Source: Trichobilharzia regenti (lineage: Eukaryota > Platyhelminthes > Trematoda > Strigeidida > Schistosomatidae). Taken from it: 64,000 nt of DNA. Each line of letters starts with the position of its first letter. The stretch's first letter is position 1. The translations under genes were made by a program, and so were the position numbers. Below are positions 6,128 through 57,370 of the stretch, piece after piece. A model generated the notes under the pieces. That model saw nothing but the letters and a program-made list of their open reading frames with translations. It was not told the DNA's origin and did no database searches. The DNA lies in assembly GCA_944472135.2 (NCBI GenBank), contig OX235267.1:19079452-19143451 (forward strand), given 5' to 3'.

Positions 6128-6129
6128 TT

Positions 6130-8005: not shown

Positions 8006-8009
8006 TGAA

Positions 8010-9414: not shown

Positions 9415-9422
9415 TCAATAAT
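9415..9422 (-). CDS. Possible last exon of the minus-strand MEG
   Basis: A good acceptor (ACCGCATTTCTCAG on the minus strand) is followed by ATTATTGA. Joined in phase 1 to the T that ends the exon at 9564-9572 it gives Tyr-Tyr-stop, a counterpart to the Tyr-Glu-Ile-stop proposed for the plus gene at 57360. The intron would be about 141 nt. There is no AATAAA close downstream, so this is a weak call. Confidence 0.25.
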
Positions 9423-12400
9423 CTGAGAAATGCGGTATAATAACCTCAGCACTGTATCCTTTAAACCGGAACAAAATTTTAATTTTATTTACAAAAAGAC
9501 GAATTCTCTTCACACAAAGAATCCTTTAAGAATGTTTATCTAAGTTGATAAATTTTTACTTACAGTTTTTAACTAAATATAAAGTAGAATACAGGGAAGA
9601 GCATTAATATATATAAATTTGTTCTTTAAGGAATCAATTGTGTCAAACTAATCACTAAACATCGCACATCAGTGAGAATCTCTCTCATGCTTTTTAATGA
9701 TCAGTCACTAGAAATGTGTGGTTTTCAATGACGTGCATGTTTTATTGATTATCGATTAATCAATTTGGTGCATTTTGCGTGAATCAGATCGCTGTACGAT
9801 AACTTCCTAATGTTGAACTGACTTTCGCTGTATTATAGTATAAAGAAAGTGTTTATTTCATGATATAGAGTTTGTCATAGCTGCTTTTCAAAGACGATAT
9901 CAGCTTAACTGCATAAGGGTTGACAGTGTATGCATATAATTTCCATAGTTTTCAAAGATACGTTTTTCATTTTGGTTTAATCTATTTGTTGGTCATGGTA
10001 ATAAGTAGAACATACTTTCATATAAACAACTATTAAAAGGTGTCAGTGTAAAAAGAAACTAGATTCCGAAATTACCGTTTAACAGTCGGTAGAAAATAGA
10101 TCTGCCTTCAAACGGCATTTACATTTATCAAGAGAATAATAAGAACTATATAATCGAAAACATATAATCTTAGTATGAAAATTGAAGTGTCTCTGTTTTC
10201 ATCATTTATGAGAAATAAGTTCATTAGCATCACTAGTCATATTCATTCACATAAACTATTCCTTCAACAAAATATAGTTACCCATCCTCATGATCTTTTC
10301 CAGTAATGTGAACCTGATTTTCAAGTACTTATTTCTAATAACTTTATTTCGTATCTGTATGGAAGAAATGCCTATATTTCTTAAGATAATTACTAAGTTA
10401 GGTTACATTTCAAACTATCTTAGTAACTAATTAGATTACTTGATGTTAACGCCAAAGGGGAAATTGGCACACTACTGTATTCAAAATATTCCCTAAAGTC
10501 ACCATATTACTTACTGGTACGACCTTGATGATCAAAGTGAATTCATTAGAAAATATACATATTTACCTCACTAAGCATAGAAAATCAGCCTAACATAAAA
10601 CTGAGCATTCTTATCTAGGTTTAAAGTTGGTATATACAACTTTGGACCATAAAAAGATGAAATGCGATACGTTATAGTCAGTACGACATGGCCACATCTA
10701 AAAGCCCCTAAGAGATGTGTACTTTGCAGAAAATTCTAGTAAACAGAAGATAATTTGTTGGTGGTGGTTGAGCTAAGTCATGAACTGGTAGAAGTTAGAA
10801 TTCAAAGGCCATTGAATCGGGTCCCAGTGACTGAATGGTATACGAACTTGCCCTGTAACCGGAAGGTCCTGGGTTCGAACCCCAGTGGGTGCGTATTGCC
10901 GATCATTCTCAAACTAGGGTGAAACAGCTGTCCAGTACTCCCTTGTTTTTGATTGTTCTCTAACTGATATCATTCTGTGGTGAAACTCGTAAAAACATAA
11001 TTTGTATTAAATTTTTCTCCATGATAATAAGCAACGTGCAGCTTCAGTGAGTGGAATTGCTGCCGAAGTTGAAAGAAAGTTACATTATGACAGGTAGTCT
11101 AAACAAATCTTAACATTCGAAAATCAGTTAGATGTATTGGATTTGTCATCTTAGTGGGTACAGATGGTAGTCGATGGTTTATGATATCATGATCAAGCTT
11201 AGACATTATTCAGTCACACTAAGTATCAATTACTTGACGCTTTTAGCGGAACTTCGATTGAGAAATGCTACTTTTATTATACAGCTGTTATTTAACGACT
11301 CAGATAAATGTTATCTGAAAAACAATAAAAGTCAGGTGGTGAAGATTTAAATTCTACTTCGCCTTAATTCCATCTATATCAAGGTGAGTTGTTTACCACA
11401 AATTGCCACTGGTAATTCATAACTAGCATGAAGTGGTTTGCGATGAGAACTCATTGATCTAGGTTTTTTCTCTCACTGGTATCCGTCCAGGAGGCTTATA
11501 TGCAAACTTGGAAAAAGGATGTCTACTCTGACCAGTACCAAACAATGCGAACGTCAGAGACGCAACGGCTAAGCTGTTCTGCCCCTCCACAACACCCTGA
11601 TGGCTGTTCATTAAGGCATGAACAATGACATTTGTTTGACTACCATTGTTGACTGAATTCTGTTAGTCTATGTGCTCACCTCGTAACCGGAATATTCTAA
11701 ACCCAAAGGCTTACAGAATTGTTAAATTTCATTTGTGGCTCAGGAAGAAAATGTATTTTGTTATTATTTTTAAATATCACTTCAAAAGTCTAGTTTCTAT
11801 TTTTAACAAGTTAATATACAAAACACTTGTGGAATGCTTAAGATGAAATTTTTAATGGAAGATAGGTCAATTGCTGCATTTAACACTGTATATTTTTAGG
11901 GATATCTCACCTCTTTTACAGCCTATAAAATAACGCAAAACATTGGGCATTGGTGAACAACTTTTAAAATACTTGGCATCATAACTTAATATGAAATTAG
12001 GTGACAACATTTTGGAAAGACGAATCGAATACTATCACCTAGAGAATCCTGGACCACCTTCATTATTTGAATGCGGAGTGCGATTAGAATTCTCTGCTTT
12101 TTTTCATACCACCTACTTAAGTTGAGCGGTTCAGGTTTCAATCACTGGCTCACTCACTCTTTAACTTCATTCAGCTGATAGTAAGTCTGCTGAAGACTGA
12201 AGGCTAGGCGTGAGTTTGGTAACCTCACCATTTCTTCTGAAACTTCAAAACTCTACTTTGAAGCCCTATTTTCCACTCGGAACGCAAAAGATTAAAATAA
12301 CAAATTAAAAAAATTGATATAAACTCGCATGACTTAAAACACTATGGAGCATCATGTTTACAGAAACGAAACCGACTAATGCTTGATCATTATTACCAGT

Positions 12401-12678: not shown

Positions 12679-12709
<31 letters not shown>

Positions 12710-15700
12710 ACTTTATTCCAAAAACAGTACTTGTGACACAGAATGGAATTTTCAGCATTAATCAATATATTGCACCTAATTTCCTCAATTTATAAATAAA
12801 ATTAATCACACAGAAAATTTTCCACATTTACAGTAGAGGTAGTGTCAAAAACATGCAGCATATAAAATGGAAATAGCAATAATAATGATAACAGCTAGGG
12901 TAATAATAATAATAATAATACAAGTGAAAATTGCCGTTGGCTTGTGTCACACAGTATAGGCAATGTAGTATAGAAATCCTAACATGTTTAAAAATATTAA
13001 ATATAATGTTCTCTTTACATGATATGGTGAGGGGAAAAACAAAGATTACAGCAGTCATGGAGATAAGTTGGTGTTTGCAATTATGAGAGTAAAACAGAGA
13101 AGTATCAGGACCATAAATATAATAGAAGTAATAAAAGTAAAACTTCAAGGTATATAAGGATGGATGGAGGAAACTGTTTATTTACTAGATGAAAAAAGGT
13201 TAGTTATTTGTTGCCTGACACTATTTTCATCACATAAAATACGTGCCAACTATGGTATCATAGAATTTCTATACTTAGACGTGCGAGCATACAGTTTTCT
13301 GAAGTTACTCCTTGTTCTACCTGAGGAGATGCAAGGTGAAAGCTGAGCGTAAAGTGGGTGCTCCAAGTCAGACAAACCCCCTCTAGCAAATTTATTGCAC
13401 AAAGTCAAGTGCCTATCGATAACGACGTTAACTATGTGGTCCACTGGGACACCACTCACCCTACTGACAGTCTTCAGTATTCTACGAATTGTGACATAGT
13501 CCTTTTTAAGCAAACCAGGAAAGAATAAGGGTGAACAATAAAGAAAAATAGGTGGGATGCAAGAGTTGACAAACTGTAAGATGAGGGGTTGAGTTATACC
13601 CGAGTGTCTTAACTTCTTAATGTAAAATGTCAGGCGGAATATTTTACTGGAGATCGCTATGACATGGGAAGTCCAGGAGAGATCAGAAGATAGAAAGAGA
13701 TTCAAAAATATGTAGGTCAGGGTGAATATAATTAGGCATATAAATAAAGTTCATGTAAATAATGCACTTACACTCCCTAACAAAAGTGTCCGCTAATAAA
13801 ATATGTCATGAAAAGTGGTTACATCACACTTTAACTGATTTTAATGTTTAAAGATTGCGCAACAGAAATTGATTAATCAACTAATCTGCCTACAAGATTT
13901 AAACTACCATATTTCAGAAAATATATAAAATTAATTCCCCGTGTGGGATATTTAAGAAATCTATAACTTTCCTATTCCTATCCACTGGATAAGGGATTTT
14001 ATTTTTCATGAAGCAAGCTACGAATGCTGTGTGTTTGAAGAGGGATAGGGTAATACGGAGAGTTGCGCATGCCTTCAAAACTCTGGCTCCTTCTTTATCA
14101 TCTTTTATAATGTATTTGTGATGAGTGTTACAAAAGGAGTATTTATTTCGTGATCACACGATCAAATAAAACCTTAGTATCAAGGGACATTTGGACTACT
14201 GATAGTTATCAATATTTTTTTAAGAATTCACTTTAGTGTTCTTTAGTGTATTTTTAAGACGAAATTGTAATCATTTCTGTTATTTTTACTGAAATGACTA
14301 ACGTATTTAATTATTTGCAAAGGCCAATAACTTACTAATGTTGTTTACAGCATAACCTACATTTGAAACGGTATTTGCTGCCAGATATCTGTTGTGGAAA
14401 TTCGGGAATATTTTGTGCCAATGTACATTAAGATTTGACTTCATAGTCCCACAAACACTATGTAACGTCGTAAGAAAGGACATGTTTGAAATTTGAATTT
14501 TTTACTTTCCTTTATCTCCCTAAAGAATGTCGGTACAGAGTTCTGATTCAAATATGAGTGTCTCTGGCTTTTAACAAATATAACTTTTACATTTCACAAC
14601 ATTTGTACAAAAACTTCAGTGTTTCATGTGTCTACAAATTACTATGATATTCTAAATCTAAATATATCGATCACATGAAAACTTTACAAGAGTGCAGATC
14701 TTTAATATATCCCTTTGGACGAATAATTACGGAGTACTTCCTGAACGCATTCAATTTAATTGTACTTACTAGTCCTTAATAGCATCATTTTGTGTCCACT
14801 TCTACCACAATTATATCGCTTACTTGATTTCCTTCGTTCATCTGGTTATTCAAGTTTGTTTTTAATCATGAGGTTCGATTCTTCACGTACAGCTTTATAA
14901 AATCTCTTCCATTCACAGATTTGATTTGACGGAGAATGTAGCTTTCAAAATTATTCATACATGCATCGAAAATGCATTAAATGCACCCCTTTTCAGCGAG
15001 TAGGAATTTGCCACTGACGTATTTAAGTTTTTAGTTTATGTTTGATGAATTAGTTAATAAATATGATTCACTTACCAAACTCAGTGCAATATTCATAAAC
15101 GTCTGAAATTATATTATGGACGTGGATTATTTACTTTAATCGGAAAATTTTCCAAATATTGACCAATGTTCTATCTGGAATTAGAATGAGATCAATTTTC
15201 TGTTAATTCCTTCATTGCTATTTCATCAGGTATGCATACAACTGTGATTCAATATTTCTAGCAAAGTTCTAGTCATGAAAGGACTATGAATTTTTAACTT
15301 TCCACACCAGCATGAAAGCGATAATGAAATTCTATAAATGCTAACATTCTCAAGTTGGCAATATCAATGTAGACAGTGACGATTACATAAAGTATAAGAT
15401 TTAGGTTTTAGCAGTGATTTAATTCTGTCAGCAATATTCCTGTTTATTCAAAATAAAGTCTTCAAGACAGTAATTTCCTGGTATAAGAATGACCTGGAAA
15501 AGTAAGACGTGATTACTTGTAACTTTATTGTTCCATATAAACCTTTTGTTAATTCTGAACTCTGCAATCACAGTATGAAGATGTGTAAATTCATAAAAGT
15601 CGTCTTCCAAAATTTTCATTTAAAATTTTCATTCATACAGCTGATTCTAATTTGTTGATAGTAATCTTAGAATGTTGTATTTACTCTGCACTTTCATGGT

Positions 15701-18700
15701 ATGGTGAGGAAGTGATTCGCGTTTTTGTCTGTTTTATGCTTTTCAGTGAACTGTGAGAACTGCGAGTGTAATTGTTTGCGTACGGTGATTCTCAAAACAG
15801 ATTATTCTCATTTGCTATGATAAGTATCCTTTATCGAGAAGTTTCGAACCAGCAAATGGATTCAAGTGTTGGTTTGTAGGGATTTGATTGGTTTCAGGAT
15901 TTCATCATGAGTTGATATTAGTTAGAGAACCATTGGAAAACCTGGGAGTACTGGAGAGATGTTTCGTCCTAGTTTGGGACTCTTCAACAGGACGCATCCA
16001 CCAGGATTCGAACCGAGGACCTCTCGCTTACAAGGCAAGCTCAAGGACCATTTGATCGGGTCCAAGTGGCTTAATCGTATACGAGCTCGCCTTGTAACCG
16101 GAAGGCCCTGGGTTCGAATCCTGGTGGGTGCGTACTGCTGAAGAGTCCCAAACTAGGACAGAGGAAACAGTTGTTCAGTACTCCGAGGTTTTCCAATGGT
16201 TCTCTAACTAATGTCAGCTCATGATGAAATTCTGAAGCAAATGGATTATAATGATGACACATCTGACTTGATACTGATGAACACTCATTCGGTTCTCAGG
16301 AAGAATTACAGTGAAATGTGTTTATGTATAATACTAAAACAAATATGTGTATAGGCCCTTTTGAGGAAAATGTTATGTGACATAATTCAAAAAGAATGAA
16401 TCTCACTTTTGCAACTCTTCAAGTCATTTGTGTTCAAAAACTACTCCAAGTGTTATATATGTCCAAACTGATGTGTTACACATGATGTGTGTTTGTTTTT
16501 GTCAGTCTATTATATTTTGCTATGTGTATATGGATCGATATTTCATTATAACTGACATTATGCTTTTGTCTGTCCACTAACTAAATAAGCATGTATGACC
16601 TTGTTATCATATGACATTACAACCAATCATGGTAAGATGTTATCTTATTGGTTCATATGTATTAGCCATTTTCATATATACTTTTGTATCAGACTCTTAA
16701 TCACTTCTTGTTCATACATTTCGTACCATTCACTCACACACTTGTGTGACATTTATTTTTCTTATCTGGGAAATACAAGTATCATAGTAAACCTGGTGGT
16801 CTTCTGATTTCCGTCTTTCCGCGTCAGGACTATTTACTACTCAACGAGTACATAACACAAATCAAGTTCACTTTTCACAGTTTGAGAACATTCAGGGATT
16901 GGGTATATGATGTTCATTATAATAAACGTATTTTGTATTTTACAATGAATGAAATCCCAAACGATATTGCTTTTACTGGCATTCCGCTATTTTAATGCTA
17001 ATAGCCTTATCAACGTATTATTTAACCCGAATTTTTTGTCGAATTAGCCGACTTGACGAAAAAATGCCCCCAAGCTGGGGAACGATGATTATGTTGTCAC
17101 ATGTTAGTTGAGATTTTGAAAATTGTAGGTTAATATCCCTATTATTTAGAAGAATTTCAATTAACTCACTCTGAAGTATATATCCTAAGTGCGAAAACCA
17201 AGAGCAAGAATGTTCTCTTTCGTTTAGTGTGGTCGAAGCAAATTTCAGTGTTCTATTTGGTCGGAAATCATTTGAGGCTTAGCAGCTGTGTAATTATTAG
17301 TGCTTAGTGAAATATATCTTTTTCAACTAACAATGAAAAACATTGTTCATTCAAAACAAAGTCTTCAAGACAGTAATTTCCTGGTATAAGAATGACCTGG
17401 AAAAGTAAGACGTGATTACTTGTAACTTTATTGTTCCATATAAACCTTTTGTTAATTCTGAACTCTGCAAACACAGTATGAAGCTGTGTAAATTCATAAA
17501 AGTCGTCTTCCAAAACTTTCATTTAAATGTTTTCCATGAACGAATGTTTGTAGGTTAAATAATCAGTGATGAAATGATCAAATAATATTGTCATACTCAT
17601 TTTTATACTCTTTTCATTGATATGACAGTGACTGTGATGCAAGCTGAACTCGCAATGGTAATCTCAGTTACTTAACGATTACACATATATTTTAAGGATA
17701 ACTGCAGGCTCTGTCTAAACAACGAACACATCATTTCGTTCGGTTTTCATACAGGTGATTTTAATTTGTTGATAGTAATCTTAGAATGTTGTATTTACTC
17801 TGCACTTTCATGGTATGGTGAGGAAGTGATTCGCGTTTTTGTCTGTTTTATGCTTTTCAGTGAACTGTGAGAACTGCGAGTGTAATTGTTTGCGTACGGT
17901 GATTCTCAAACAGATTATTCTCATTTGCTATGATAAGTATCCTTTATCGAGAAGTTTCGAACCAGCAAATGGATTGTTATGATGACACCTCTGACTTGAT
18001 ACTGATGAACACTCATTCGGTTCTCAGGAAGAATTACAGTGAAATGTGTTTATGTATAATACTAAAACAAATATGTGTATAGGCCCTTTTGAGGAAAATG
18101 TTATGTGACATAATTCAAAAAGGAATGAATCTCACTTTTGCAACTCTTCAAGTCATTTGTGTTCAAAAACTACTCCAAGTGTTATATATGTCCAAACTGA
18201 TGTGTTACACATGATGTGTGTTTGTTTTTGTCAGTCTATTATATTTTGCTATGTGTATATGGATCGATATTTCATTATAACTGACATTATGCTTTTGTCT
18301 GTCCACTAACTAAATAAGCATGTATGACCTTGTTATCATATGACATTACAACCAATCATGGTAAGATGTTATCTTATTGGTTCATATGTATTAGCCATTT
18401 TCATATATACTTTTGTATCAGACTCTTAATCACTTCTTGTTCATACATTTCGTACCATTCACTCACACACTTGTGTGACATTTATTTTTCTTATCTGGGA
18501 AATACAAGTATCATAGTAAACCTGGTGGTCTTCTGATTTCCGTCTTTCCGCGTCAGGACTATTTACTACTCAACGAGTACATAACACAAATCAAGTTCAC
18601 TTTTCACAGTTTGAGAACATTCAGGGATTGGGTATATGATGTTCATTATAATAAACGTATTTTGTATTTTACAATGAATGAAATCCCAAACGATATTGCT

Positions 18701-21700
18701 TTTACTGGCATTCCGCTATTTTAATGCTAATAGCCTTATCAACGTATTATTTAACCCGAATTTTTTGTCGAATTAGCCGACTTGACGAAAAAATGCCCCC
18801 AAGCTGGGGAACGATGATTATGTTGTCACATGTTAGTTGAGATTTTGAAAATTGTAGGTTAATATCCCAATTATTTAGAAGAATTTCAATTAACTCACTC
18901 TGAAGTATATTTCCTAAGTGCGAAAACCAAGAGCAAGAATGTTCTCTTTCGTTTAGTGTGGTCGAAGCAAATTTCAGTGTTCTATTTGGTCGGAAATCAT
19001 TTGAGGCTTAGCAGCTGTGTAATTATTAGTGCTTAGTGAAATATATCTTTTCAACTAACAATGAAAAACATTGTTCATTCAAAACAAAGTCTTCAAGACA
19101 GTAATTTCCTGGTATAAGAATGACCTGGAAAAGTAAGACGTGATTACTTGTAACTTTATTGTTCCATATAAACCTTTTGTTAATTCTGAACTCTGCAAAC
19201 ACAGTATGAAGCTGTGTAAATTCATAAAAGTCGTCTTCCAAAACTTTCATTTAAATGTTTTCCATGAACGAATGTTTGTAGGTTAAATAATCAGTGATGA
19301 AATGATCAAATAATATTGTCATACTCATTTTTATACTCTTTTCATTGATATGACAGTGACTGTGATGCAAGCTGAACTCGCAATGGTAATCTCAGTTACT
19401 TTACGATTACACATATATTTTAAGGATAACTGCAGGCTCTGTCTAAACAACGAACACATCATTTCGTTCGGTTTTCATACAGGTGATTTTAATTTGTTGA
19501 TAGTAATCTTAGAATGTTGTATTTACTCTGCACTTTCATGGTATGGTGAGGAAGTGATTCGCGTTTTTGTCTGTTTTATGCTTTTCAGTGAACTGTGAGA
19601 ACTGCGAGTGTAATTGTTTGCGTACGGTGATTCTCAAAACAGATTATTCTCATTTGCTATGATAAGTATCCTTTATCGAGAAGTTTCGAACCAGCAAATG
19701 GATTGTTATGATGACACCTCTGACTTGATACTGATGAACACTCATTCGGTTCTCAGGAAGAATTACAGTGAAATGTGTTTATGTATAATACTAAAACAAA
19801 TATGTGTATAGGCCCTTTTGAGGAAAATGTTATGTGACATAATTCAAAAAGGAATGAATCTCACCTTCGGAAATCTCCATGTCGAAATATCCTTCAAAGT
19901 AATATACAAGATTCGATCAAACCTATCAAAGGGAGTAAAATCAAGACATCTGGGCATAGCCGAGGCGCTAGCTATGCAAAAGCTCAAACCCACGCTTTGT
20001 ATACAAAAGAAATATGTCCAACCCCTGTCCCTGCCATGGCCATCATATACAGGTAATTTTTAGTAATGACCATCCCATCGCCTTTCTTATCTAGACTTCC
20101 TGTTTATTCATGTTATTTTAAGTTTTTCCTAATCCCTGTTTACACTACCAAATTTCATACCCGAACTTAGTGTTTATTTGCCATTTTACTATTTCTACAC
20201 ATTTAATCCCTGATTGCATAAACAATTATTCATCACATTAGTTTTTGTCCAAACATCCCGTCTATTTTGTTATTTCTACATTTCTAACCCCTAATTGCAC
20301 AATGTCAATCTTCTTAGTTATTATGATGCTACTTTGTTTGTTTGTTTTATCCATCCCCCTGTTTATTATGGCATTCTAATTCCTAATTTTAATTTTTATT
20401 AATTTGACCTTTGACTGGATATTATTCTGGAACTTTCCCATCCATTTGATATAAATACACGAATGTACAGCCTAGTTGATGATGACTTCGTCGAAAAGAA
20501 AATTTTCTTCGCTGCAATTGTCTTCTTATTAACTTGTGAATGTGATTATAATATCATTGAAGTATAAATTTCAAAAAGAAAATCTCCGCCATGAAATCCC
20601 ACACTGGGTCAGTTTTATGAGAGCTGATAACTGGTGCGCTATAGTAGCCTCTGTCCAAAATATAAGGACAACGAATAAAGTGTGTCTGGAATGAAGAGCA
20701 TCCATGTGGTCTAGTACAGGCACCTTGTCATAGTGGCGCCTTTTTTAGCTTTTTTTTACAATTGTTATTGCTAATAAAATAAGTAATTCAGTGAGTAGTT
20801 TGTTTTTCGTGTGATTCCATTTACTTTATACGTACAGTCAGAAGCTCTTTAAGGAGTTGAAATGCTGAATTCCCCGTTGACTGTTGCCCTTTGTTCCCAA
20901 TAAACTCCTTTTCCAGAATGATACACAAAGTAAACATTAATTTGTCAAAGACAATACCCATTCTCCTTCCTTGAGCTACTTAAACTCTGGTTATCAAATA
21001 CAGAAACCTGAGTTCCGCATACAAAATGGAGTTCCCTAACTGCTGCTTCTCTCACATTATTGACGCCATTGTCTTTAAACAGTTCTAACCGTTCCATTTT
21101 TCCAAGTTCTTACTGAATATCATTTTCTCTTCGTTTGCTGTGCATGCTAGTAATTTATCCTAATACTTAACTCAGCCACTCCTACCCAACTTCTCCTGCG
21201 TAATGAATAATTTTAGCAACTTTTCTTATGACAATTCATCTCTTTCCCTAATTTCCTCTTTTTTGGAGCAAAAATAAACTGTATACAAGTGTGAGTGTGT
21301 GGCTGGATAAAATAATTTGTGACTAATCTTTAAGTTCATGTGAAGTGAAAAACTTTACATCAACAAATATAATGGTTAAGACAGTTATTCTGTGTTTTTA
21401 TTACTGCTCTTCTACAAGTATCAGACGCTAACATATCAGTATAGTAGTTATGACGATCAGAACTCAGGTAACTCACTGTTAACTACCGTTTAAAAAAGTA
21501 TGAAAATATCAAAGAAATGGCAAACGTCTTCAAACTGCGATAGAAATTCCAGTAAATTAGGTAAAGAAAAATAAATTTTATTCCATCACAGTACTGCCAT
21601 TTAAAATGAATACTGAGTGAACCGAAACGCCTGAATAACATACAATCCAGTTCGCAAAAACTGCTCCGTTAATCTCAGTTAAATGAATATCAACTGTTAA

Positions 21701-30535: not shown

Positions 30536-30568
30536 TCTCAAATTATGTGAACAACTCAGGACCCGGGG

Positions 30569-30576
30569 TTTATATA
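30569..30576 (-). promoter_or_regulatory. TATA box of the minus MEG
   Basis: Minus-strand GTAGTATATAAACC. It lies about 34 bases upstream of the exon 1 ATG, so the 5' UTR must be very short. The same box and spacing occur in the inverted copy at 35761. Confidence 0.7.
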
Positions 30577-31084
30577 CTACAAATTCTTCATTGCCACGCC
30601 TTCATTACTTGAAGAGAATCAAGATCTGTTTACAAAAAACGCCAATTGATACAATAAATAATAAATGAACAATAACACACTCAACATGTCCACATTTGAC
30701 TTCTCACTGATTTAGAAAACAATAAGTGGATAAATAAACCAATGAAGAGATAAATCTTACTTAATTGTGGTCACAATAACAACTGAAATTATTAGAATGA
30801 CAGAATGCTTGAAACAAACAATTTTATTTTCAAAACAACCCTCAAAGGAGTAACAAATTAATAAACTCTGTGTAACCTACATGATAAAATGAAGGCAATG
30901 AAGCTGACATTGATAGCTTTTCTGCGATATAAAATACGGCTACCTTACCACCATTATTTTGCATCATGTACTTAGTCAATCATTATATTATCTGATTCAG
31001 TAATGATTTATTCATAGCTTGTGTAAATAGTAGGCTGTATTTTGATTCGACAGTGATGTTCTCCATTGTTGAAGAGGTTCAGAT

Positions 31085-35768: not shown

Positions 35769-35801
35769 CCCCGGGTCCTGAGTTGTTCACATAATTTGAG
35801 A

Positions 35802-47800: not shown

Positions 47801-50800
47801 CTCTTTTTAGCCCTCCAGGATTGCACGATTTCTGACTGAAAGTCAATTAGAAAAGGTCTAGTAGTTCAGTTCGAGTCCCAAAGATATAACTCAGAAAGAT
47901 TTACCTCCCATATTGAGCAAAAGTTTAGAAACTTGCAAATCTTCAGGTTATAAAGATTTTAAATACTCCCTAGAGCAAATAGTAGCATTGTAGGTCATAT
48001 TAATTGGTAAAAACAAGGCGAGGAAGAGAAATTATGTATAATATAGAAGTGAGGCAAATTTTTAAGCAGGCCTCCAATTAAAAGGGCGCTGATTCATTTT
48101 TAATACTCGCTTGGTCACAGTTTATATGATTATGGAGTGTTTGAATCGTCATTCACCAAATAATACTGTTTTGCCTTGTAAGGTACATCAAATGAACCAA
48201 AAATATGGAATTTCACACTACTACAGTGTCCACGCTTTTCACACTTATTATAAATATTCATTGAAAATTAATTTGATGACTGTTTGAAATGTCGTGAAAT
48301 ACCTCAAGGACGTGTAACTGTTTTCTCTAAACTCAAGAATCCAAAACAGCGAACTTTAATGTGTAAATAAGATGAAATTTACGTTTTTCATATGCAGAAA
48401 ACAGCATATTACTCAAGATAAAATGCATCAAAGTAATTGCAAACAAATAACTCATTTATTTGTCTCATGATTCTGAAATTTAGTCTCTGAATGGTATTGA
48501 TCTATTTTTAAGCCATTTTAGTGGTTGAACTTTATACAAAATATTTCCTAAAGATTTTTATGTTTCTGCGCTCTAGAACTTCCTTTGATAAACCTTATAT
48601 ACATTATGCAGATTTACTACATCACATAGTCCATTCACTTGTTTCATGACTTGTTTCTGACCTTCTTATTTAGTATCAGTCCCTAATAGTGAATCAAAAT
48701 GAATATCTCCATTCTACAATATACACATTTTTCCATAATTGTACACATCACTGAGAACTACGTTTTGCATATATAAAAGCGCTTCAATTTTTGGTTGAAA
48801 TACTGGGTGTTTTTACATTAATACTTTCATTCCACTAACCCGTATTTTATTCCTGTTATTCCCTTGAATTTCGAGTGGAATGTAATGCTGCAGAAATACA
48901 TCTCCATTGTATTATGATCTCTGCAGTGTTTTCTAGTTGGTTCCATGACTCTCTTTAGTCTCTCATTTACTGCTCACAAGATCACCTCCATATCACCCTC
49001 AGATTCACTAAAGATATTTTGCTGTCGAAAAGTGAGAGTGCTGAATTCTGAATCATTCACGTCTGCTTTCATTACGTAAAAACACACACAAATCTGCATG
49101 ATACTGATCTATCTTTTCCATCCAGCATTTTAATTTTAATTTTTCGGGTAACATGTTACCTCAAAATTCAATATCATGGCACTCTTACAACTTAATTAGT
49201 TTATTCACGTGTACATTAAATCATTCGAATTGTGTAAAAAGCATGGATAAGTATTATTAGGAATTACAGCCGATTTTGATTTCCTAGGACACAGTGAGGT
49301 CTTTATTATAGGATGAAGGAGCGACAGCAACAAAAAAGTAACTGGACTGAACTTCAGTCTTCCACTTGGTTAGCAGGAGCTACTTGTTGACACTATAGGT
49401 CTCTAGATTTCCATGGCAATATAACTTTATGGTACTGTGCTGCTTTGTTTGATATTTCGACTTTCATCTACGATATCAGGTTAATCATATATTCTGATTT
49501 AAATATTTCATGACTTCTGAAAGAAATCCTGCAGTTTTCAAATGACAATTCTGTTATAATGAAATGCTTATAATGACGAAATGTTACTTTCACAACCAAA
49601 AATTTACAATTCATAGGGAGGGTGTGTAAGTGGTGATTTGCTCTGATTTTAACAACTTCCTAAACGTGTTTAATCAGTTTGTGCATTACTTATCTCGGAA
49701 GTGAATACAGAATACACTTCATCGTAATTTTCACAATGTACAGGTAATCATGAGTTCTGCATTCATTATTAAATAACCCTGACCATTCTAAAGTAACGAC
49801 AAGTGGTGTATTCAGCGCATACTTATGAAGACAGACTGAATGTCATTTAGATATATATGGCTGAGATAATATACCTGCCACACAATATGCTGTCTACTGT
49901 TTACACTAAAATGGTCGACTGAACATCAGTGGTAATGAAAGCCAGAAGCAAATATCAGCGAAAGTATGCAGTTTAATGAATCAGTTGATATAATAGAAGA
50001 AAAATTTGGCGACACAGAACTAGGCATGGATAACACAGGAAAAAGCCAAACACATATAAGCAATTGTAACTAGTTTTCGAATTTGAAGCAAAATGGAAAT
50101 ATTTGTAGACATCAGAACATTTACTTATTTTTCCAATTTTCACTTTAAAATACTCTCTGAGGTAGCGTTATTTATGCATAACGTTTCTGCAATACAATAG
50201 TGGAACTATGTAAGTGATGATTCTGTAAATTTATTTAACATTTCAATGCTGCCTAAATCATTATCTGCAATAAAAGTAATATACGGTTAACATCAGCTTT
50301 ATTCTTCGGAAATAAAATAAGTTTAAATAATTCAGTGTGAAGCCACCAGTCATTATGTATGAGTACACATTTGCTAATGACAGTAAATAATGTCATATTT
50401 ATTTCCACCTGTTTCAGAGATAATTGATATCAGAATGAATGTGTTATATTCCAAATTCCTAAAACAATAAACTTAATAAGTGAGTAAAGCTGCTAGTGCA
50501 AAGTATTGATGATTACTGAATATTTTATAATACCTTTACCTGCTGCCTAGACGATAAATATAGTCGTACGTTTGCTTTAACTATTATTCCATATTTATTC
50601 GAAAGACATTAATTTATATGTTAAATAAAGTCTTCATAATACTTTATTGACTATTATTATAAACCTATTCAGGGTGAAGACTCCCTAGAGGGGAACTTCA
50701 ATCCAGTACTCCTTGTTTTAAATTTTTTTTGTAACTCATTTCAGTCCATGATCTAATGTACTTCTTTCAAACATTGGAAACTGTGAATAATGCGACGAAA

Positions 50801-53800
50801 CTGTTGATGTTCACAGGAAAACAAAATAAATAAAACTCACATTTTTAAGTCCACTACAAAGCAGTGAAGAAAAACATATAAATTAGGGGTCATTGCAGCA
50901 GGCATGAAGTCAATAATCAATAATCACCTTACCTTCAATATTCATTCCCCCTGAACGATATTTGTTGAATTTGAGAGACTTTGAGGCAAAGTTAAACTTT
51001 CGACACCACTAACAACCAATCAGCAAATGACCTCGAACAGACCAATCACATTAAAGAGGCATATATGATGAATGGAAATGTATATTTATAGAAAAAAGCA
51101 TAAAATAGATAATAAAAAAGGTTACATGGGATATCTTTCTCGAACATGTGAGAGAAAAATCTCCCAGTTTAGCATGGGACTGTCAATGGAGAAGTTACAC
51201 CATATCCTGTACATATATTCATCCAAATGACTATAAATGAGATCCTTTTGAGATACATTTAAAGCCCTTATCCTATTTTCCAACCTGCCCCTAAATCCTT
51301 CATTAGAATTTGTATGTGTCCCCGTAACGGAATCCACAAAATCACTTGAATGGTTGTCTCTACGATGAATATATCCCAGAGATGACAGCGAATTGTAGCC
51401 TTTCCGTGTGCATAATTGACCCCCGCTTAACAATTCTGGTAACAATAGGTATAAGAGTAGTTGCTTTTCTATCTGCTATCCTTAGGGAGAGAAGCGACCT
51501 AGCGAAAAAAGTTCCTACGAAATAATAAAATTATCAGCATACCCACTCTAGTGTTAGTAGGCTTCAAACATATAGCACAACGATGAACAAACCCATCAGT
51601 TGATTTGGTTTAGCTTTTTAAAGTCATGATACCACCACACAATCAAATTCGTTCTTTCCGAAGCAACTGAAGTCTAGGAAATACTGGGAAACACTAACCT
51701 CCTCGAATTGCAACAACAGCCTTGTGAGGTCACGCATTAGAAATGAATCAGGCACTATACAACACTGAACTGCGTTCGTGAACCTCATTGGATAATTCGA
51801 CATCGTTCGTGAATCTCATTGGATAATTCGCTGATTGGTAGTTAGTGGTGTCGAAAGTTTAACTTCGCCGACTTTGATTTTTACCTCAACGCGATAGTCA
51901 GGTGGGTCCTCATCAATATTTTGAAGTATCTGTTGGTCTACTAATGGGAACTTCTCAACGATGTATTATGGCATAATTTAAATATCACAAGAAAAACTGC
52001 CTGGTTATGAATAAAACAGATTTATACATAAACTTATCAATATTTGATTGAGTAATTCTATAAACATATTTGTGTAGATCTCACCGAAGTTTAAATAATT
52101 AATCACCAAGTTTCTTTCAGTAAAATAGTACAAACATCTACCGTGAAATTATCAAAACTAAAAGATCCTTCTGTATTTCAGAAATAAAGGAGTTATGTCC
52201 ATATTTCGGTGAGTTCAAATTAAATTCTAAAAACTATAGCTCGAATGCGATATGCATTATTTGTTACAAACCTACTAAAAAAACTTGCAAAAATCTTTAT
52301 CTAGACTAAAAGGTACTTGGAGTCAGCAGACGCGTGTATCTAAAACGTTTATTCAAAGAAAAGTGTCATTTTATGTTCATGAAACAACTACGAATATTCT
52401 ACAACTAACAATGAGTTCTTTCTAGAGAAAATGATTGAAGCTTCGAGTTTAAAGGATGCTGCTGTTTCAGTGGGCATACCTCACAAAGGATTATTGTTAT
52501 ATTATCTGAAACCCCATATAATCAGTATAATTATCAAAATAAACATTTCAGTTCCTTGTCTTAATTGTGTTTGGAAACCATCCCAGTAACAGGATAATAA
52601 TTCAATATTATTATTAATATTTTTTACTATACAAATTGGCTACCATTCCAATGATACAATTGGACAGAAGTGCATTGCAATCCTAATTCCAAACTTTTCC
52701 TGACAGCAAACTGTTTCTCCAAATCTGAACTTAACATGCTAGACTACCACGCTTATATACTGCTGCTGTTGTTTTACGATGATTTTTTTATTTTAAGGTA
52801 TTATAACTTCCTGTCGCTAAAATGTAACAAGACATCAGTAAACAAGTGGCATGATATTTTAACCGATGTCTTCTTTGAAATAATTTGCTTCATATCTTCG
52901 TATATATTTCACGTGGTATTAATGAAAAGGATGACGCAGTATCCATCTGAAGTATTCTACCGAAATTGAACAGCTTCTTCAAATCCTGCTTTATTAAAAT
53001 TGTGTTGCTTGTCTTACAGAAGAAGCGCTTCGCGAACTACGTAAGTAGTCAGTCACAGATTAGCTATAATTAATCCAAGTAGGCAAATAGAACTTGCACA
53101 AAAAAATACGCATACATGTATTTATCAGTTTAAGGTATAGCCAAAAAAGTAAACCTCTCGATTTTGCTTATCATGTCAAACTTCGGAAGCACAGTGATAA
53201 CTGGTTAGTTATTTCAACATAGCGAAGTAGTGATAGCATTTTTCACTGATCAGTTGTCTAATGTAATGGTAAAGCAGTTTGTCACGTAAAGCTGATGATA
53301 TCACAGAATTTGTTAGACAGTTTGTGGTATGGCTTCATTAAGTGATTCGAAATATCTTTCATTAGTCCAAAAAAGGTCCAATTTTTGGTTCAACGCCAAA
53401 TGGAATTAAATTATAAAATATAAAATTCATTATTTCTTATTACGACTTATCAACGTCTTCAACTCAAGTTACTCGGACGAAAAAAGCTTACTAAAAGAAT
53501 GAGTGGAATTAGAATTAGTGATTTTAAACAAAATGAATGTGAATATTATACAATCTCTGAATGTCAAAATGTTAGCATGGAGAACATGTTATTGTTGGCA
53601 TTAGCTTAATAAAATAGAGTCCATTTATTAAGACATAATATTTATCCTTATGTCTAATTCCTAACTGCTATATTTATGACTTTTATGATGCTTAGTCTAA
53701 TTTCGTTTTTTTGTATATAGTACATATTAGCCTTTTTTAAACTTATTTACTGGAAGCCTGAAAATAGTTCACTTGAATTACCAATAACAATAATACATGA

Positions 53801-56800
53801 TAAACCCTCAAATTCTTGAATATTAGAAGACAAATTTTTCACAGACTGTGAGTTAGTTATACCCATGCATTACTGTTGTACCAATGTAGTAAATTAAATT
53901 AGGCTCAACAAATTCTATATTCTTGATTCATTAATACATTTGTTGTTCTATAGTAACGTAAAAAGTGCTATTAAAAACGTGCATTCTACATACTAGAGGC
54001 TAGTAAAGTTATAAACAGTAAATAATGAAACATATGATGAGTTGATTAACTACCCAAAGAGATCTACTTCCTTTCAGTCTATGCCTCGCCTTTCTGGCAA
54101 ATTAAATGAAAGCTTCAGTTTCTATGCAGTTTGCACAACCATCAATTCTCACATTTCTTTGTTCTCAGTACATTAATATGACGGAATTACCTGGTTTCTT
54201 TCAAGGCTGCAGGGGTTAGTTTGTACCTTTAGCTATTAAAATGTTTATAAAAGTGATTTGAATGTACTAAAAATCAGCACAAGCATGAGCTTCATCAAAT
54301 TTTCATCATGGTGATATACCAAGAAGTGGAGTTTGTCATTTCCGTACTAAATAATTTCCCATGTCAGAAAAATGTTCAGTTAAATGGATGAACACTTGAT
54401 TCACAGACAACGTTTTAACCAAAAACATTATTAAAGTACTTTCGAAGAATCTGCAGCTTGCGCTACTGACAGGAATTTAAAAGTAGCACGTTGCATGAAG
54501 TCTTCTGGAAAAATATCGGATAGCAAAGCGAGGGATTAAGGTGCGAAGAGGAGGAATGCAAGATCTTTGTAAAGCAGTTTATAAAGCATGAAAGGAAGAC
54601 AAAGTAGGGAAGAAGGAATGGAAAGAACTTGTGTAAACGTTAATTCCAGTGTGAGGTCTCTGTATTTTGCTATCGCTGTATATTATTTTTCCAACAAATA
54701 ACTTTGCTACAAAATATTACTGTGTCCTACCGCTAAAATCGGATGTGAGACTGCTTATTTTATATCTTATTTTTTCACTGAAATGTTAATCGTTGTTAGG
54801 CATTTTTAATGGCCCTTAATTGGTACAACACGTATCATTACCCATGGGTACTGCATAAAACTAAAGGGTAATGTGAAATGCGGTTACTTATGTGAAAAAT
54901 CAGGCGTCCAAATGTAGGGTGTTTCTTTCATTTTACTTATATCTTATCTAATGAAACAGAGATGTCTACATATTTCCAGTTACACTGTACACTGTTGGCG
55001 ATATCCATCTGATAGTCACGAACTAGTAGGCCGGTGACAATGTTTTGTGTGATAAATAAGAGTGCATTGAGGCGCTTATAGTTCCTGATATCCTGGAATT
55101 ATTCGAATGGTTGATTCCTGTTAGGCGGACAGTTACATTTTCACCCATCTACATAATAGAGGGTCATTTTTTCTTGAGACTTTAGTGGAAAGGTGATTTG
55201 GTCAATACCTGGTTTTAGATGGGGAAGCTTCAGGTCATTAATCTTGAGGCCATTATTTCTTATAATGTTACGACTTAGAAACTGTGCAATATTATTTATG
55301 TCAAGTGAAATCTAGGTCCTTCTTGTGGAATGAAGTTTAATTTTTTCATAAAGTGTTTGTCCATTTTGTTGCCTTATCTTTCAAAACACAATATATTTCT
55401 CTGTTTAACGTTAAATCTGAAATTATTCGTTGTTACAGTGATTTGAACACTGTTTGGCATGCCATAGAGAATTCATAGATTTTAAATTAATATTATATAG
55501 CCTCTTAATGAAACTATGAATAGTTACAGTGATTCTGAAAATGGCTATAAATTCTGTCGACTTCACACTAAAATGAAACTGTTGTATTAGGCTTTATTAA
55601 GATTTATGTTTACTTTTAAATTTCCATTGGTTGCATGTACGTATTTGTTAAGTGAACATGACAGATGTGATTTGGTTTCATTTAGATGCAAATGGAATAA
55701 GTAGAACAAATACTCACATAGTTAGGAGGAGAACAACTTTTGAATCACTGAACATTTCTCAAGAAATAAACGTTGAACTACTTTTCATAACTAAATAACC
55801 ACACTTCGTTCAAATTGTTCTTAACTTCTTTGATGGTTTCCATTCATCCATCACAAATAAAAACTATGTCCTCAAAACTGAATAATCCACACATTCCGTT
55901 GGTTCCTGAAATAGTTCATCTGTCGCATGTGTTTGAATTTATAACCAAGTAAAATAGATGTTATCAAATTCTTATGACAGCAGTCTCTTTCCTGCTAGCT
56001 ATTTTGTAGCACAAAACCGAATCTACATCCTTAACAGCATGCAACAATTGGATTTTGAGATTCTCATTAACCTGATCTTGCCAAAAAATTCGCGATATCC
56101 ACTATCTGGATATTTAAAAAATACCTTAGATAGTTAGTGGCGTAAGCGAATTAGAGAAACAAGTAATCATCTGTCTAAAATAGCACTTCATTTTCTATGT
56201 GGAATTCACTACACTTTATAATTTTTAATAAAAACTGTTTTCCTCCCCCTCTAAAGTGAATTATATCTGACTGAGTAAACATTGAGTACTTTCTTCAATA
56301 ATAACATAAATGTAAAGATTAATCGCACACTATTTTTCGTTTAATTTCCTTTCCAGGCAAAAATTGTAAGCATTATTTCTCTTTATGAAATACTGTTAGT
56401 GAATGACTGAGGATAAAAATCTCAAAATTATGAATATGGAGCGATGAAACAAATATTTAGAGCCGGGGTTTTTGAGATGCCATGGATAGATATTTGATAA
56501 AAGTGAAAAATAGTACTTCTGCAGTGAATTATGTCATCTACTTCACCATCATCCCTATTAAAGAAGGTAAAACCCAAAAATAAAATAGACTAACTGACTG
56601 TACAAAGTTTTATACAAAATGGGCAAATACATATCATATATGTGAATCACACGCAGGTGGAAAATGTGAGTTTCTGATGACTACTTTTTATTAGGAAAGT
56701 GTATCATATAACAAGCACTAGATATTCACATATATTCAGACATATTGTTTTCGAATGCAAACACTTGACAGTTTGTTAAAGAGCAATGGAAACTTAAACA

Positions 56801-57370
56801 TTTGTACCGTTGATAAAACTAATTACTCGCTATTAAAACAGAGGCCACTAGAACATTTTTATAGCAAATTGGTCGTAACTGGTCACCTCCCCTCAAACAC
56901 CTCTACATGATTACATGCATGGCGATGTCTTGCGTCTGCAAACGGTAGAAGTGGAGAGGTGTGTAATGAATCATAAGAGTAAATAGTCTGAATGTTAGAA
57001 AACAACCATAAAGGTTTTCTCTCTCGCAATAATTTCTAAGAAATAAACATTTTAGGCATATTTGTATGTGTTCATTTTACTCGCAATGTACGGAGGTTAG
57101 GTTCAGCGTTTGCTTACTAAATTACTTTTCCAACTGTTCACCTCATCCGTATTCTGCTCAGTTGCCTTGAAATACAATTTCTCCATATTATATTATATTT
57201 TTCGACATATGATCACATTGAATTACTTAATGAGTATTTTAATATGACATTCATGTTTATGAGGTGGTTATTTTAAGTAACTAAATAGTTCTAAAAATAA
57301 TGTTGCAATCTATTCACTATGAATAATGATAAACACTTTTTTCCTGTAGATGAAATCTAATCCACCTATA
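35802..57370 (+). CDS. Micro-exon gene, plus strand (gene span)
   Basis: Proposed schistosome micro-exon gene of about 21.5 kb. Exon 1 codes a signal peptide. Candidate internal exons: 36830 (15 nt), 39036 (9), 40512 (24), 41860 (18), 42569 (12), 44495 (9), 52182 (27), 53020 (21), 56357 (9), possible last exon at 57360. All are multiples of three and phase 1, so any subset can be skipped without a frame change except where the carried base makes a stop. Joined in order they give no stop before the last exon. The product would be roughly 65-70 residues, secreted, acidic, with three Cys. This layout is diagnostic of schistosome MEGs, known to be expressed in gland cells at the host interface. 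I do not recognise the family number. A PLE with a SINE, and a Merlin element, lie in its introns. Confidence 0.7.
36362..36608. repeat. R1 terminal repeat, copy 7, inverted pair in MEG(+) intron 1
   Basis: Left half (36362-36470) is R1 on the minus strand, right half (36471-36608) R1 on the plus strand ending ATCACAGTCCCCAAGG. The two share ACACTGTGTGATTTGTC-type sequence and could form a long hairpin in the pre-mRNA close upstream of the first micro-exon. Confidence 0.7.
36830..36844 (+). CDS. MEG(+) candidate micro-exon, 15 nt
   Basis: ATACACTGGCTGGCG between TTTTCTTTATTTCAAG and GTAAGTAAAA. With the G from exon 1 it codes Asp-Thr-Leu-Ala-Gly, just after the expected signal peptidase site, and ends in G. 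Both splice sites are near consensus. Confidence 0.75.
36967..36984 (+). CDS. Optional MEG(+) micro-exon, 18 nt
   Basis: CAATGCACAGACGCGTTT with a strong acceptor (TTGATGTTTTTCTTAG) and donor GTATGAATAT. In phase 1: AMHRRV. It ends in T, and both following exons start with AG, which would create TAG. It can only be used if the 3-nt candidate at 37155 is included or as a truncating exon. Confidence 0.35.
38190..38340 (+). repeat. SINE (third family) body fragment
   Basis: CTATGGTCGGCCTGCAAAAT, AAAATTCCATACTTGTATG and the AT-rich tail match 34560-34695. The tRNA-like head is lost. Confidence 0.65.
39036..39044 (+). CDS. MEG(+) candidate micro-exon, 9 nt
   Basis: AGCAGCCAG between TATTATTGTTCCCACAG and GTATGTGACA. 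In phase 1: Glu-Gln-Pro, ending in G. Counterpart of the 9-nt minus exon at 28758. Confidence 0.6.
40512..40535 (+). CDS. MEG(+) candidate micro-exon, 24 nt
   Basis: Acceptor TTTATGTACACTTAAAG, 24 nt, donor GTAAGTAAAA. In phase 1 it codes ENENCDLF. Paralogous to the minus exon at 27863 (shared Asn-Cys-x-Leu). The acceptor tract is moderate, the donor strong. Confidence 0.7.
41351..41362 (+). CDS. Optional MEG(+) micro-exon, 12 nt
   Basis: TAATCACTACAG between AGTATTCTGCTGTAG and GTAATCTGTG. Codes VITT in phase 1 and starts and ends compatibly with its neighbours. The donor is weaker than in the core set. Confidence 0.35.
41517..41531 (+). CDS. Optional MEG(+) micro-exon, 15 nt
   Basis: TTCGTGACAGTGCAT before a perfect GTAAGTCATA donor; the acceptor (ACGAAGGGACAG) is purine-rich and poor. 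Codes VRDSA in phase 1. Confidence 0.25.
41860..41877 (+). CDS. MEG(+) candidate micro-exon, 18 nt
   Basis: TACAATTTGGGCAAACAA with a strong acceptor (TCTTTCATCCATACAG) and donor GTGAGTCGGT. In phase 1: VQFGQT, ending in A. Confidence 0.75.
42569..42580 (+). CDS. MEG(+) candidate micro-exon, 12 nt
   Basis: TTTGCGGACCAA between ATCTGGTTGATTACAG and GTAAGCCTTT. With the A from the exon before: Ile-Cys-Gly-Pro. Second Cys of the product. Confidence 0.75.
43310..43835 (+). repeat. LTR-like dispersed repeat
   Basis: Diverged relative of the segment in the 15-20 kb array: shared CTAGTGGTCTTCTGATTTCC, GCGTCAGGACTATTAAA and CGAGTACATAACAG. Contains an (AT)n run near 43615. Probably a solo LTR or other non-coding transposon end; no coding part adjacent. 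Confidence 0.45.
44495..44503 (+). CDS. MEG(+) candidate micro-exon, 9 nt
   Basis: GCGAGAATC between CTTTTATTTTGGAAG and GTAAGTTTCC. With the A from 42580: Ser-Glu-Asn, ending in C. Confidence 0.65.
45244..45430. mobile_element. Foldback SINE inside the PLE 3' UTR, 18-bp TSD
   Basis: 187-bp insertion flanked by AATACAAATTCATGAATT at 45226-45243 and 45431-45448; the related PLE end at 5.2-5.7 kb has the empty site. Left part: HHR-SINE on the minus strand from its tail to box B. Right part: only the SINE 3' tail on the plus strand. The ends therefore form an inverted repeat (GGTTACAGGATTTCAT against its complement). The minus-strand hammerhead-like core is the best preserved in the window: CTGATGA, GTCC/GGAC stem, GAAAC. 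Confidence 0.85.
45312..45349 (-). ncRNA. Hammerhead-like core in SINE
   Basis: Minus strand: GTACTGATGAAGAGTCCCAA followed by ACTAGGACGAAACAGCTGTC. It has CTGATGA, a GTCC-GGAC stem II with a CAAACTA loop, GAAAC, and a self-complementary ACAGCTGT stem III ending in GUC, the usual cleavage triplet. Against activity: three extra bases (AGA) between CTGATGA and stem II, and no loop in stem III unless two molecules pair. Confidence 0.5.
47319..47347 (+). other. PLE-type terminal core, mutated
   Basis: CTGATGATGATGAAGTTATC followed by AAAAACAGC: the same core as at the 3' ends of the other PLE copies, but GAAA is CAAA and there is one extra TGA. Probably the end of another PLE relic abutting the minus-strand PLE. 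Confidence 0.4.
48105..48245 (+). repeat. R1 terminal repeat, copy 8, old
   Basis: TTATATGATTATGGAGTG, GAATCGTCATTCACC and CTACAGTGTCCACGC mark a heavily decayed R1. Confidence 0.5.
48850..49035 (-). pseudogene. RTE LINE 3'-end fragment
   Basis: Complement of the RTE 3' end: TTATTCCCTTGAATTTCGAG corresponds to TTACTGTTCCCTTGGGTTCC at 2050, and the following 150 bp align to the C-terminal coding part. A candidate splice segment at 49000 lies within it and was therefore rejected. Confidence 0.6.
49617..50209 (+). other. Two optional micro-exon-like segments (9 nt each)
   Basis: GGAGGGTGT at 49617-49625 (acceptor TTTACAATTCATAG, donor GTAAGTGGTG) and TGGAACTAT at 50201-50209 (acceptor CTGCAATACAATAG, donor GTAAGTGATG). 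Splice sites look usable, but each ends in T, and joining to the exon at 52182 (starts AA) would make TAA. They could only be truncating alternative exons, or are chance. Confidence 0.25.
50418..50471 (+). other. Possible alternative terminal exon
   Basis: A strong acceptor (TTTCCACCTGTTTCAG) is followed by 17 open codons in phase 1 (EIIDIRMNVLYSKFLKQ if preceded by G) and a stop at 50468 that overlaps AATAAA (50466-50471). It could be an alternative short 3' end of the plus MEG. If preceded by the C that ends 44503 the first residue is Gln. Confidence 0.3.
50640..50745 (+). repeat. HHR-SINE 3' fragment, old
   Basis: GGGTGAAGACTCCCTAGAGG, then CCAGTACTCCTTGTTTTAAA and TCAGTCCATGATC resemble the SINE part from stem II to the tail. 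Confidence 0.45.
50985..51869 (-). mobile_element. Merlin-type DNA transposon, deleted copy, with TIRs and 8-bp TSD
   Basis: 885-bp element. Left end GGCAAAGTTAAACTTTCGAC, right end (complement) GGCGAAGTTAAACTTTCGAC; the inverted repeats continue through CACCACTAAC and CCAATCAGC for about 45 bp. Flanked by the direct repeat GACTTTGA (50977-50984 and 51870-51877). Minus-strand ORF 51122-51445 contains DFVDSVTGTHTNSNEGFRGR, then SQKDLIYSHLDEYMYRIW: the C-terminal catalytic part of an ISXO2/Merlin DDE transposase (THTNxxEGFxGxLK and LxxYLDEYMWR). Merlin is known in schistosomes and makes 8-9-bp duplications. The N-terminal half of the transposase is missing or broken, so it is non-autonomous. 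Confidence 0.9.
51122..51445 (-). pseudogene. Merlin transposase C-terminal fragment
   Basis: 107 residues in one frame. The stretch VTGTHTNSNEGFRGRLENRI includes the last catalytic region of the DDE domain (His-Thr-x-x-x-Glu), followed by HLDEYMYRIW. Upstream sequence on the minus strand (51446-51700) still looks transposase-derived but has stops. Ends inside the left TIR-proximal region. Confidence 0.85.
52182..52208 (+). CDS. MEG(+) candidate micro-exon, 27 nt
   Basis: Acceptor GATCCTTCTGTATTTCAG, 27 nt, donor GTGAGTTCAA. With the C from 44503 it codes Gln then IKELCPYF, ending in G. Same length as the minus exon at 15076 with Glu, Cys and Phe in matching positions. Strongest internal exon of the plus gene together with 53020. 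Confidence 0.8.
53020..53040 (+). CDS. MEG(+) candidate micro-exon, 21 nt
   Basis: Acceptor GTGTTGCTTGTCTTACAG, 21 nt, donor GTAAGTAGTC. In phase 1: EEALREL, amphipathic and charged. It is clearly richer in G and C than the surrounding intron, as expected for coding sequence. Confidence 0.8.
56357..56365 (+). CDS. MEG(+) candidate micro-exon, 9 nt
   Basis: GCAAAAATT between TTTAATTTCCTTTCCAG and GTAAGCATTA. With the C from 53040: Arg-Lys-Asn. Paralogous to the minus exon at 9564. Confidence 0.7.

Follow-up and report, generated by a model that had tools for sequence, protein, structure and literature searches.

How does a gene family whose coding sequence is scattered over many tiny exons gain new members? 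The proteins of micro-exon genes (MEGs), a class said to go back to a founding paper by DeMarco et al. in 2010, face the host and change fast, and the growth of the family is only partly understood. The question is raised by a 64,000-nucleotide stretch of the genome of the bird schistosome Trichobilharzia regenti (assembly GCA_944472135.2, contig OX235267.1, positions 19,079,452 to 19,143,451 of the forward strand; hereafter the window), in which two genes, the candidate gene A on the minus strand and gene B on the plus strand, run outward from ATGs that lie 5.27 kb apart. A first-pass annotation, made from the letters of the window, had described two inverted promoter-plus-leader blocks, each followed by a series of tiny exons, and had proposed that the pair was born from one inverted duplication. 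We find that gene B is real, with an exon chain proven as far as databases allow, and that by gene structure, taking the class as defined by structure, it is a MEG. The bodies of A and B appear to differ widely, yet in front of them stand an almost identical predicted promoter and putative secretion signal, as if one gene had received its start from the other.

The 5′ module and the exon chain of gene B

Comparison of the window with itself returns an inverted pair of 463 aligned bases with six differences (Table 1), confirming the two outward-facing blocks of the first-pass annotation. Each copy contains a promoter, 5′ untranslated region (UTR), exon 1 and the first 9 bases of intron 1. Four of the differences lie within the outermost 50 upstream bases and two inside exon 1 (at 30501 and 30478 in A), with 374 identical bases between them; the similarity reaches from about 390 bases before the ATG to the ninth base of intron 1, and the sequences outside these limits differ. 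A TATA box, TATATAAA, is present in both copies (on the minus strand from 30576 in A and on the plus strand at 35761-35768 in B), and 41 bases past its first base comes the ATG, at 30535 in A and 35802 in B. Each ATG opens a 21-codon leader, hydrophobic in both genes as judged by eye, and is followed by the donor GGTAAGT, which leaves phase 1. As expected, the module had no match among plasmid sequences. The last 413 bases of the module hold only two differences, the two in exon 1, and both change an amino acid of the leader peptide.

The body of gene B was recovered through its leader. The B leader peptide, extended to 84 residues with X, was searched against 5.8 billion proteins and returned a single protein, UniRef A0AA85IUU5 from T. 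regenti (107 residues, "uncharacterized", E 2.3e-4), a record without a family name. Spliced alignment of this protein, with zero mismatches permitted and introns free in any phase, placed it on the plus strand at 100% identity in 21 exons between 35802 and 57360, where the stop codon ends, and the translation of these exons is identical to the record. The 19 internal exons measure, in order, 15, 3, 6, 9, 3, 24, 21, 18, 12, 9, 9, 9, 15, 27, 21, 21, 9, 9 and 9 nt; every one is a multiple of three in phase 1, and, once the neighbours of an exon are fixed, no second stretch between AG and GT matches it in length and peptide. The introns measure 291-5113 bases (median 732), and their 20 donors comprise nine GTAAGT, four GTGAGT, three GTAAGC and four others. 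Three acceptors, at 40512, 50201 and 56657, are weak, with scores of 1.3, 1.2 and 2.7. A stop codon would be created at 9 of the 210 ordered exon-to-exon junctions, and an ATTAAA lies at 57493, 133 bases past the stop. The A0AA85IUU5 record itself probably rests on RNA, because ab initio prediction would hardly yield a model that includes two 3-nt exons.

Under the criterion that most internal exons be 3-81 bp long and multiples of three, all 19 internal exons of B qualify, while gene A offers candidates only. PMC10526429 describes the MEG layout as about 10-20 very short exons whose introns measure from about 100 bp to just under 5000 bp, and B agrees in the number of its internal exons and in its introns, the largest of which slightly exceeds the quoted range. 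The same paper lists, for S. mansoni MEG clades, a post-leader hydrophobic motif (F-L-phi-phi-F-X6-W-p-basic) or red-clade motifs. None of those listed was found on reading A0AA85IUU5, which has no tryptophan; because they are absent we file B in no numbered MEG family, and under a motif-based definition it would be a "MEG-structured gene". A0AA85IUU5 had no other protein relative with E up to 10, in a search confined to relatives that have exact 5-residue words in common with it, no family in Pfam and no relative in the PDB, and four short letter strings from B retrieved no paper in a text search of the open-access literature. Counterparts of MEG-4, MEG-8/9 and MEG-26 are reported from T. regenti in PMC5825161; they share species and class with B and are known here by report, not by sequence.

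Candidate micro-exons of gene A

Gene A spans 30535 to about 9415. Candidate micro-exons were called on both strands with one rule for both genes (length 6-27, multiple of three, complete phase-1 codons free of stops, summed splice score at least 11), using a splice matrix of our own and a background of 300 dinucleotide shuffles. The rule finds 17 non-overlapping candidates on the strand of gene A, where the shuffles average 4.6 and none of them reaches 17 (maximum 11); two of the candidates are copies made by a tandem duplication, and the remaining 15 still exceed the shuffle maximum. The strand of gene B carries 15 (shuffle mean 4.6, reached by 0 of 300), and the opposite strands carry 5 for A and 6 for B, no more than chance would give (117 of 300 shuffles reach the count for A and 79 that for B). 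An earlier run with lengths of 6-45 and 40 shuffles gave the same picture at thresholds 11 and 13, and at threshold 15 it left gene A with 5 candidates and its opposite strand with 1. When the rule was tested on B, 12 of its 16 candidates of 6-27 nt (before overlap removal) were true and 5 of the 17 true exons of that length were missed; about a quarter of the A candidates are therefore expected to be false and some A exons to be unlisted. Longer candidates, of 28-81 nt, were dropped for A, as B has no true exon of that length and all 10 such candidates in B were false.

Joined as a model, the A exons create a stop at none of 210 ordered junctions. The last exon is uncertain: 9422-9415 fits, and nearby acceptors followed by a short frame and stop exist, for example at 10354. 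The nearest poly-A-like signal to this end lies at 9170.

The exons of A resemble those of B in order. We compared the ordered exon lists in two versions, the second of which, run after the first, uses only the complete codons inside each exon. In this second version all 19 candidates (summed score at least 10) scored 69 against a mean of 44.6, a value reached by 3 of 4000 order shuffles; the real score was reached by 4 of 4000 for the 17 stronger candidates and by 2 of 4000 once the tandem copies were left out, and by 0 of 400 residue shuffles in each of these three sets. The first version, which includes the junction codons, pairs the genes mainly at their 3′ ends (15102-15076 with B exon 15, 13792-13772 with exon 17, 11922-11911 with exon 18 and 10523-10515 with exon 19, together with a weak match of 14356-14336 to exon 16), and further upstream it pairs 27883-27863 with exon 7 and 25945-25928 with exon 14. 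From these comparisons gene A is likely, but not certain, to be an old, diverged paralog of gene B.

Much of the first-pass layout survives. The head-to-head pair with MEG architecture is supported by the exon chain of B and the candidate excess in A; the proposed end points, 9415 and 57370, agree with the terminal A exon and the end of the B stop codon; and the two exons singled out, at 53020 and 15076, reappear as B exon 16 and a 27-nt A candidate. Exons had been described as 9-27 nt long, in multiples of three and in phase 1, of which multiples and phase stand in B and the size range widens to 3-27 nt, three exons being of 3, 6 and 3 nt. The splice sites had been described as near-consensus, yet some B acceptors are weak; the share of A candidates expected to be false is a further correction. 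That the exons are spliced together holds for B, by way of an independent protein identical across 21 exons; for A, statistics and resemblance to B support the micro-exons, and splicing is a prediction.

Origin of the pair

As first proposed, the pair would come from a single, simple and recent inverted duplication that took in an entire MEG. Copies that are inverted, face outward and begin with the same exon 1 would suit this origin, but it is contradicted by the limits of the module and by the introns. Only the 463-bp block is near-identical across the two genes, its identity ends 9 bases past the exon 1 donor, and, some short stretches of mostly repeat-like sequence aside, the introns do not align. 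When the two gene strands were compared at high sensitivity (E <1e-5, inside both spans), eight such stretches appeared beyond the module, none of which touches an exon of B; six lie in, or next to, repeats with further copies elsewhere in the window, and two are unclassified (25700-25610 with 48158-48251, and 26238-26177 with 47538-47598). We therefore regard this origin as highly improbable.

Since the introns of A and B have diverged beyond recognition and the exon peptides nearly so, yet 374 mostly non-coding bases are identical, a single date of duplication is unlikely. Old bodies combined with a young shared module imply at least two steps: first an old duplication and then, recently, a conversion or copying event at the 5′ block. 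The account that we favour, and consider probable rather than secure, is that A and B are two divergent MEGs with old paralogous bodies whose 5′ module was recently copied, most likely by gene conversion. An old inverted duplication would have produced paralogous micro-exon gene bodies, and a recent conversion between the inverted copies would then have transferred promoter and exon 1, so that the pair would share one switch and one secretory address while the bodies diverge.

The same block could instead have been captured, that is, copied in inverted orientation as a unit of promoter and exon 1 beside a micro-exon array that was already there, with a start of its own or without one, so that one gene would have acquired a new 5′ end. 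The sharp ends of the identical block and the differing outer flanks would be natural for such an event, and two further tests of A-B resemblance, by free spliced alignment and by exon lengths alone, failed. However, the A exons resemble those of B in order, so A probably was by then a paralog, whose homologous 5′ end would have offered conversion a target; because the body of A already resembles that of B, we prefer conversion and consider capture unlikely, if still a serious alternative.

A further, somewhat less probable alternative is that gene A is a decaying pseudogene, a MEG relic whose exons are no longer all spliced. A protein record was found for B and none for A in the leader search (the search with pieces of gene A being uninformative), as this alternative would have it, but exon 1, the TATA box and the donor of A are intact, which is weak evidence if the 5′ end was recently copied, and the 17 candidates retain both frame and splice signals, none of the 210 model junctions giving a stop.

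Several results weigh against the favoured account or parts of it. The leader search (range 46-147 residues with the shared leader) returned no protein besides A0AA85IUU5 and no record for gene A, and an X-separated query of gene A pieces returned no protein candidate, a result of little weight as that search also missed A0AA85IUU5. The candidate background is not flat, because at threshold 15 of the earlier run gene B has 5 candidates to 3 on its opposite strand (shuffle maximum 2, n=40), and because at threshold 11 the flank 1-8999 has 4 candidates per strand in the run with lengths of 6-45. The first version of the exon comparison is weaker than the second, with an order p of 0.013 (5000 shuffles; real score 64, mean 47.9), while 0 of 400 residue shuffles reach its real score. 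When the body of B was aligned to A with splicing left free, the real score was reached by 12 of 50 exon-order and by 9 of 30 residue shuffles, and the order of exon lengths alone gives no signal of paralogy (1455 of 4000 shuffles reach it). Conversion as the process is something we infer from identity alone, and near-identical inverted blocks could also arise from an assembly error.

Two observations concern the methods. Free-gap spliced models of the whole B protein on A were dropped; their exons swapped as the penalty changed, and shuffles were not beaten. X-padded queries can miss true relatives: A0AA85IUU5 was not returned although the query of gene A pieces contained seven 5-residue words of the leader.

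Neighbouring features and place among micro-exon genes

Within gene A lies a recent tandem duplication whose unit carries one 15-nt and one 24-nt candidate, giving two copies of each. Its alignment contains 15 differences, nine of them at the two ends; clean identity starts close to the donor of the 27-nt candidate at 19891-19865, and an older partial copy of the unit occupies 15441-15862. The core of about 1.87 kb has three substitutions, one of which falls inside the 15-nt candidate (17170-17184 / 18899-18913, minus) and alters an amino acid.

All four Rfam matches in the window are type I hammerhead ribozymes carried by SINE-like repeats (SINE, short interspersed element). Three of the four lie inside the two gene spans, two of them in that of A on opposite strands, in keeping with the excess of hammerhead-bearing SINEs at MEGs that is reported in PMC4350168. 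Among eight open reading frames (ORFs) scanned, two gave weak reverse-transcriptase matches under the curated cut-off, at 24771-25196 (plus) and 45973-46626 (minus). Between the two promoters sits an ORF at 33602-34144 (minus) with no Pfam match; by eye it is GIY-YIG-like, and we take it to follow a Penelope-like pattern.

Table 1. Features of the window (positions count from its first base). Spliced map: spliced alignment of A0AA85IUU5; unique: unique placement.
Feature	Position	Strand	Basis
5′ module, gene A: promoter, 5′ UTR, exon 1, 9 bases of intron 1	30463..30925	-	463-base alignment, 6 differences; 374-base identical run
5′ module, gene B, inverted copy of A's	35412..35874	+	463-base alignment to A module
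TATA box, gene A, TATATAAA	30569..30576	-	sequence
TATA box, gene B, TATATAAA	35761..35768	+	sequence
A exon 1, 64 nt from ATG, leader peptide, ends phase 1	30472..30535	-	sequence
A candidate, 21 nt, resembles B exon 7	27863..27883	-	candidate rule, exon comparison
A candidate, 18 nt, moderate sites (sum 11.4)	25928..25945	-	candidate rule
A candidate, 21 nt, moderate sites (sum 11.3)	23103..23123	-	candidate rule
A candidate, 18 nt, strong splice sites	22920..22937	-	candidate rule
A candidate, 6 nt	22428..22433	-	candidate rule
A candidate, 9 nt, strong splice sites	22210..22218	-	candidate rule
A candidate, 27 nt, at tandem repeat edge	19865..19891	-	candidate rule
A candidate, 15 nt, tandem copy 2	18899..18913	-	candidate rule
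A candidate, 24 nt, tandem copy 2	18471..18494	-	candidate rule
A candidate, 15 nt, tandem copy 1	17170..17184	-	candidate rule
A candidate, 24 nt, tandem copy 1	16742..16765	-	candidate rule
A candidate, 24 nt, moderate sites (sum 11.4)	15308..15331	-	candidate rule
A candidate, 27 nt, named in first-pass annotation, resembles B exon 15	15076..15102	-	candidate rule, exon comparison
A candidate, 21 nt, weaker sites (sum 10.4), position of B exon 16	14336..14356	-	exon comparison
A candidate, 21 nt, resembles B exon 17	13772..13792	-	candidate rule, exon comparison
A candidate, 12 nt, weak donor, no B partner	13309..13320	-	candidate rule, exon comparison
A candidate, 12 nt, resembles B exon 18	11911..11922	-	candidate rule, exon comparison
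A candidate, 9 nt (sum 10.9), resembles B exon 19	10515..10523	-	exon comparison
A candidate, 9 nt	9564..9572	-	candidate rule
A candidate last exon, 8 nt with stop	9415..9422	-	acceptor then short frame and stop
B exon 1, 64 nt from ATG, leader peptide, ends phase 1	35802..35865	+	identical to A0AA85IUU5 start
B exon 2, 15 nt	36830..36844	+	spliced map, unique
B exon 3, 3 nt	37155..37157	+	spliced map, unique
B exon 4, 6 nt	38513..38518	+	spliced map, unique
B exon 5, 9 nt	39036..39044	+	spliced map, unique
B exon 6, 3 nt	39743..39745	+	spliced map, unique
B exon 7, 24 nt, weak acceptor	40512..40535	+	spliced map, unique
B exon 8, 21 nt	41511..41531	+	spliced map, unique
B exon 9, 18 nt	41860..41877	+	spliced map, unique
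B exon 10, 12 nt	42569..42580	+	spliced map, unique
B exon 11, 9 nt	44495..44503	+	spliced map, unique
B exon 12, 9 nt	49617..49625	+	spliced map, unique
B exon 13, 9 nt, weak acceptor	50201..50209	+	spliced map, unique
B exon 14, 15 nt	50551..50565	+	spliced map, unique
B exon 15, 27 nt	52182..52208	+	spliced map, unique
B exon 16, 21 nt, named in first-pass annotation	53020..53040	+	spliced map, unique
B exon 17, 21 nt	53827..53847	+	spliced map, unique
B exon 18, 9 nt	54206..54214	+	spliced map, unique
B exon 19, 9 nt	56357..56365	+	spliced map, unique
B exon 20, 9 nt, weak acceptor	56657..56665	+	spliced map, unique
B last coding exon with stop	57350..57360	+	spliced map
Recent tandem duplication, period about 1.73 kb	16236..19883	.	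99.2% over 1921 aligned bases
Type I hammerhead ribozyme	15948-15993	-	Rfam; gene A span
Type I hammerhead ribozyme	16132-16181	+	Rfam; gene A span
Type I hammerhead ribozyme	45302-45347	-	Rfam
Type I hammerhead ribozyme	62910-62955	-	Rfam

Schistosome MEGs as a class, as described in PMC10526429 and PMC4350168, resemble this locus in having a leader exon, many tiny exons that are mostly multiples of three, long introns, clustering and hammerhead-ribozyme SINEs nearby; what differs here is the inverted head-to-head pair with its near-identical 5′ module, together with the absence of the S. mansoni post-leader motifs. No published report of such an arrangement was found among the matches listed in the open-access literature. 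B is a further member of the MEG class, and its 5′ module is unusual.

In each gene a TATA promoter and a 64-nt leader exon would be followed by short (3-27-nt), symmetric phase-1 exons set across long introns. The fixed leader exon would direct the product to secretion, and nearly any symmetric exon could be skipped without loss of frame, yielding a variable secreted peptide behind a constant leader; most MEG isoforms are attributed to alternative splicing of central exons in PMC10526429. Promoter activity, transcription and splicing of A, secretion and isoform variation are predicted from the letters of the window, and from their near-identical promoters A and B may be active in the same cells.

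The locus separates two processes that are usually blurred, a constant 5′ module for control and secretion and a diverging body. Gene A displays recent tandem copying of a candidate micro-exon pair and is itself a candidate gene, with no record found, that is directly testable by long-read RNA. More tentatively, the MEG family may possess a transferable 5′ module, with repeated conversion between inverted copies holding promoter and leader exon identical while the bodies diversify freely; if true, several variable secreted proteins would stand under one switch and carry one address.

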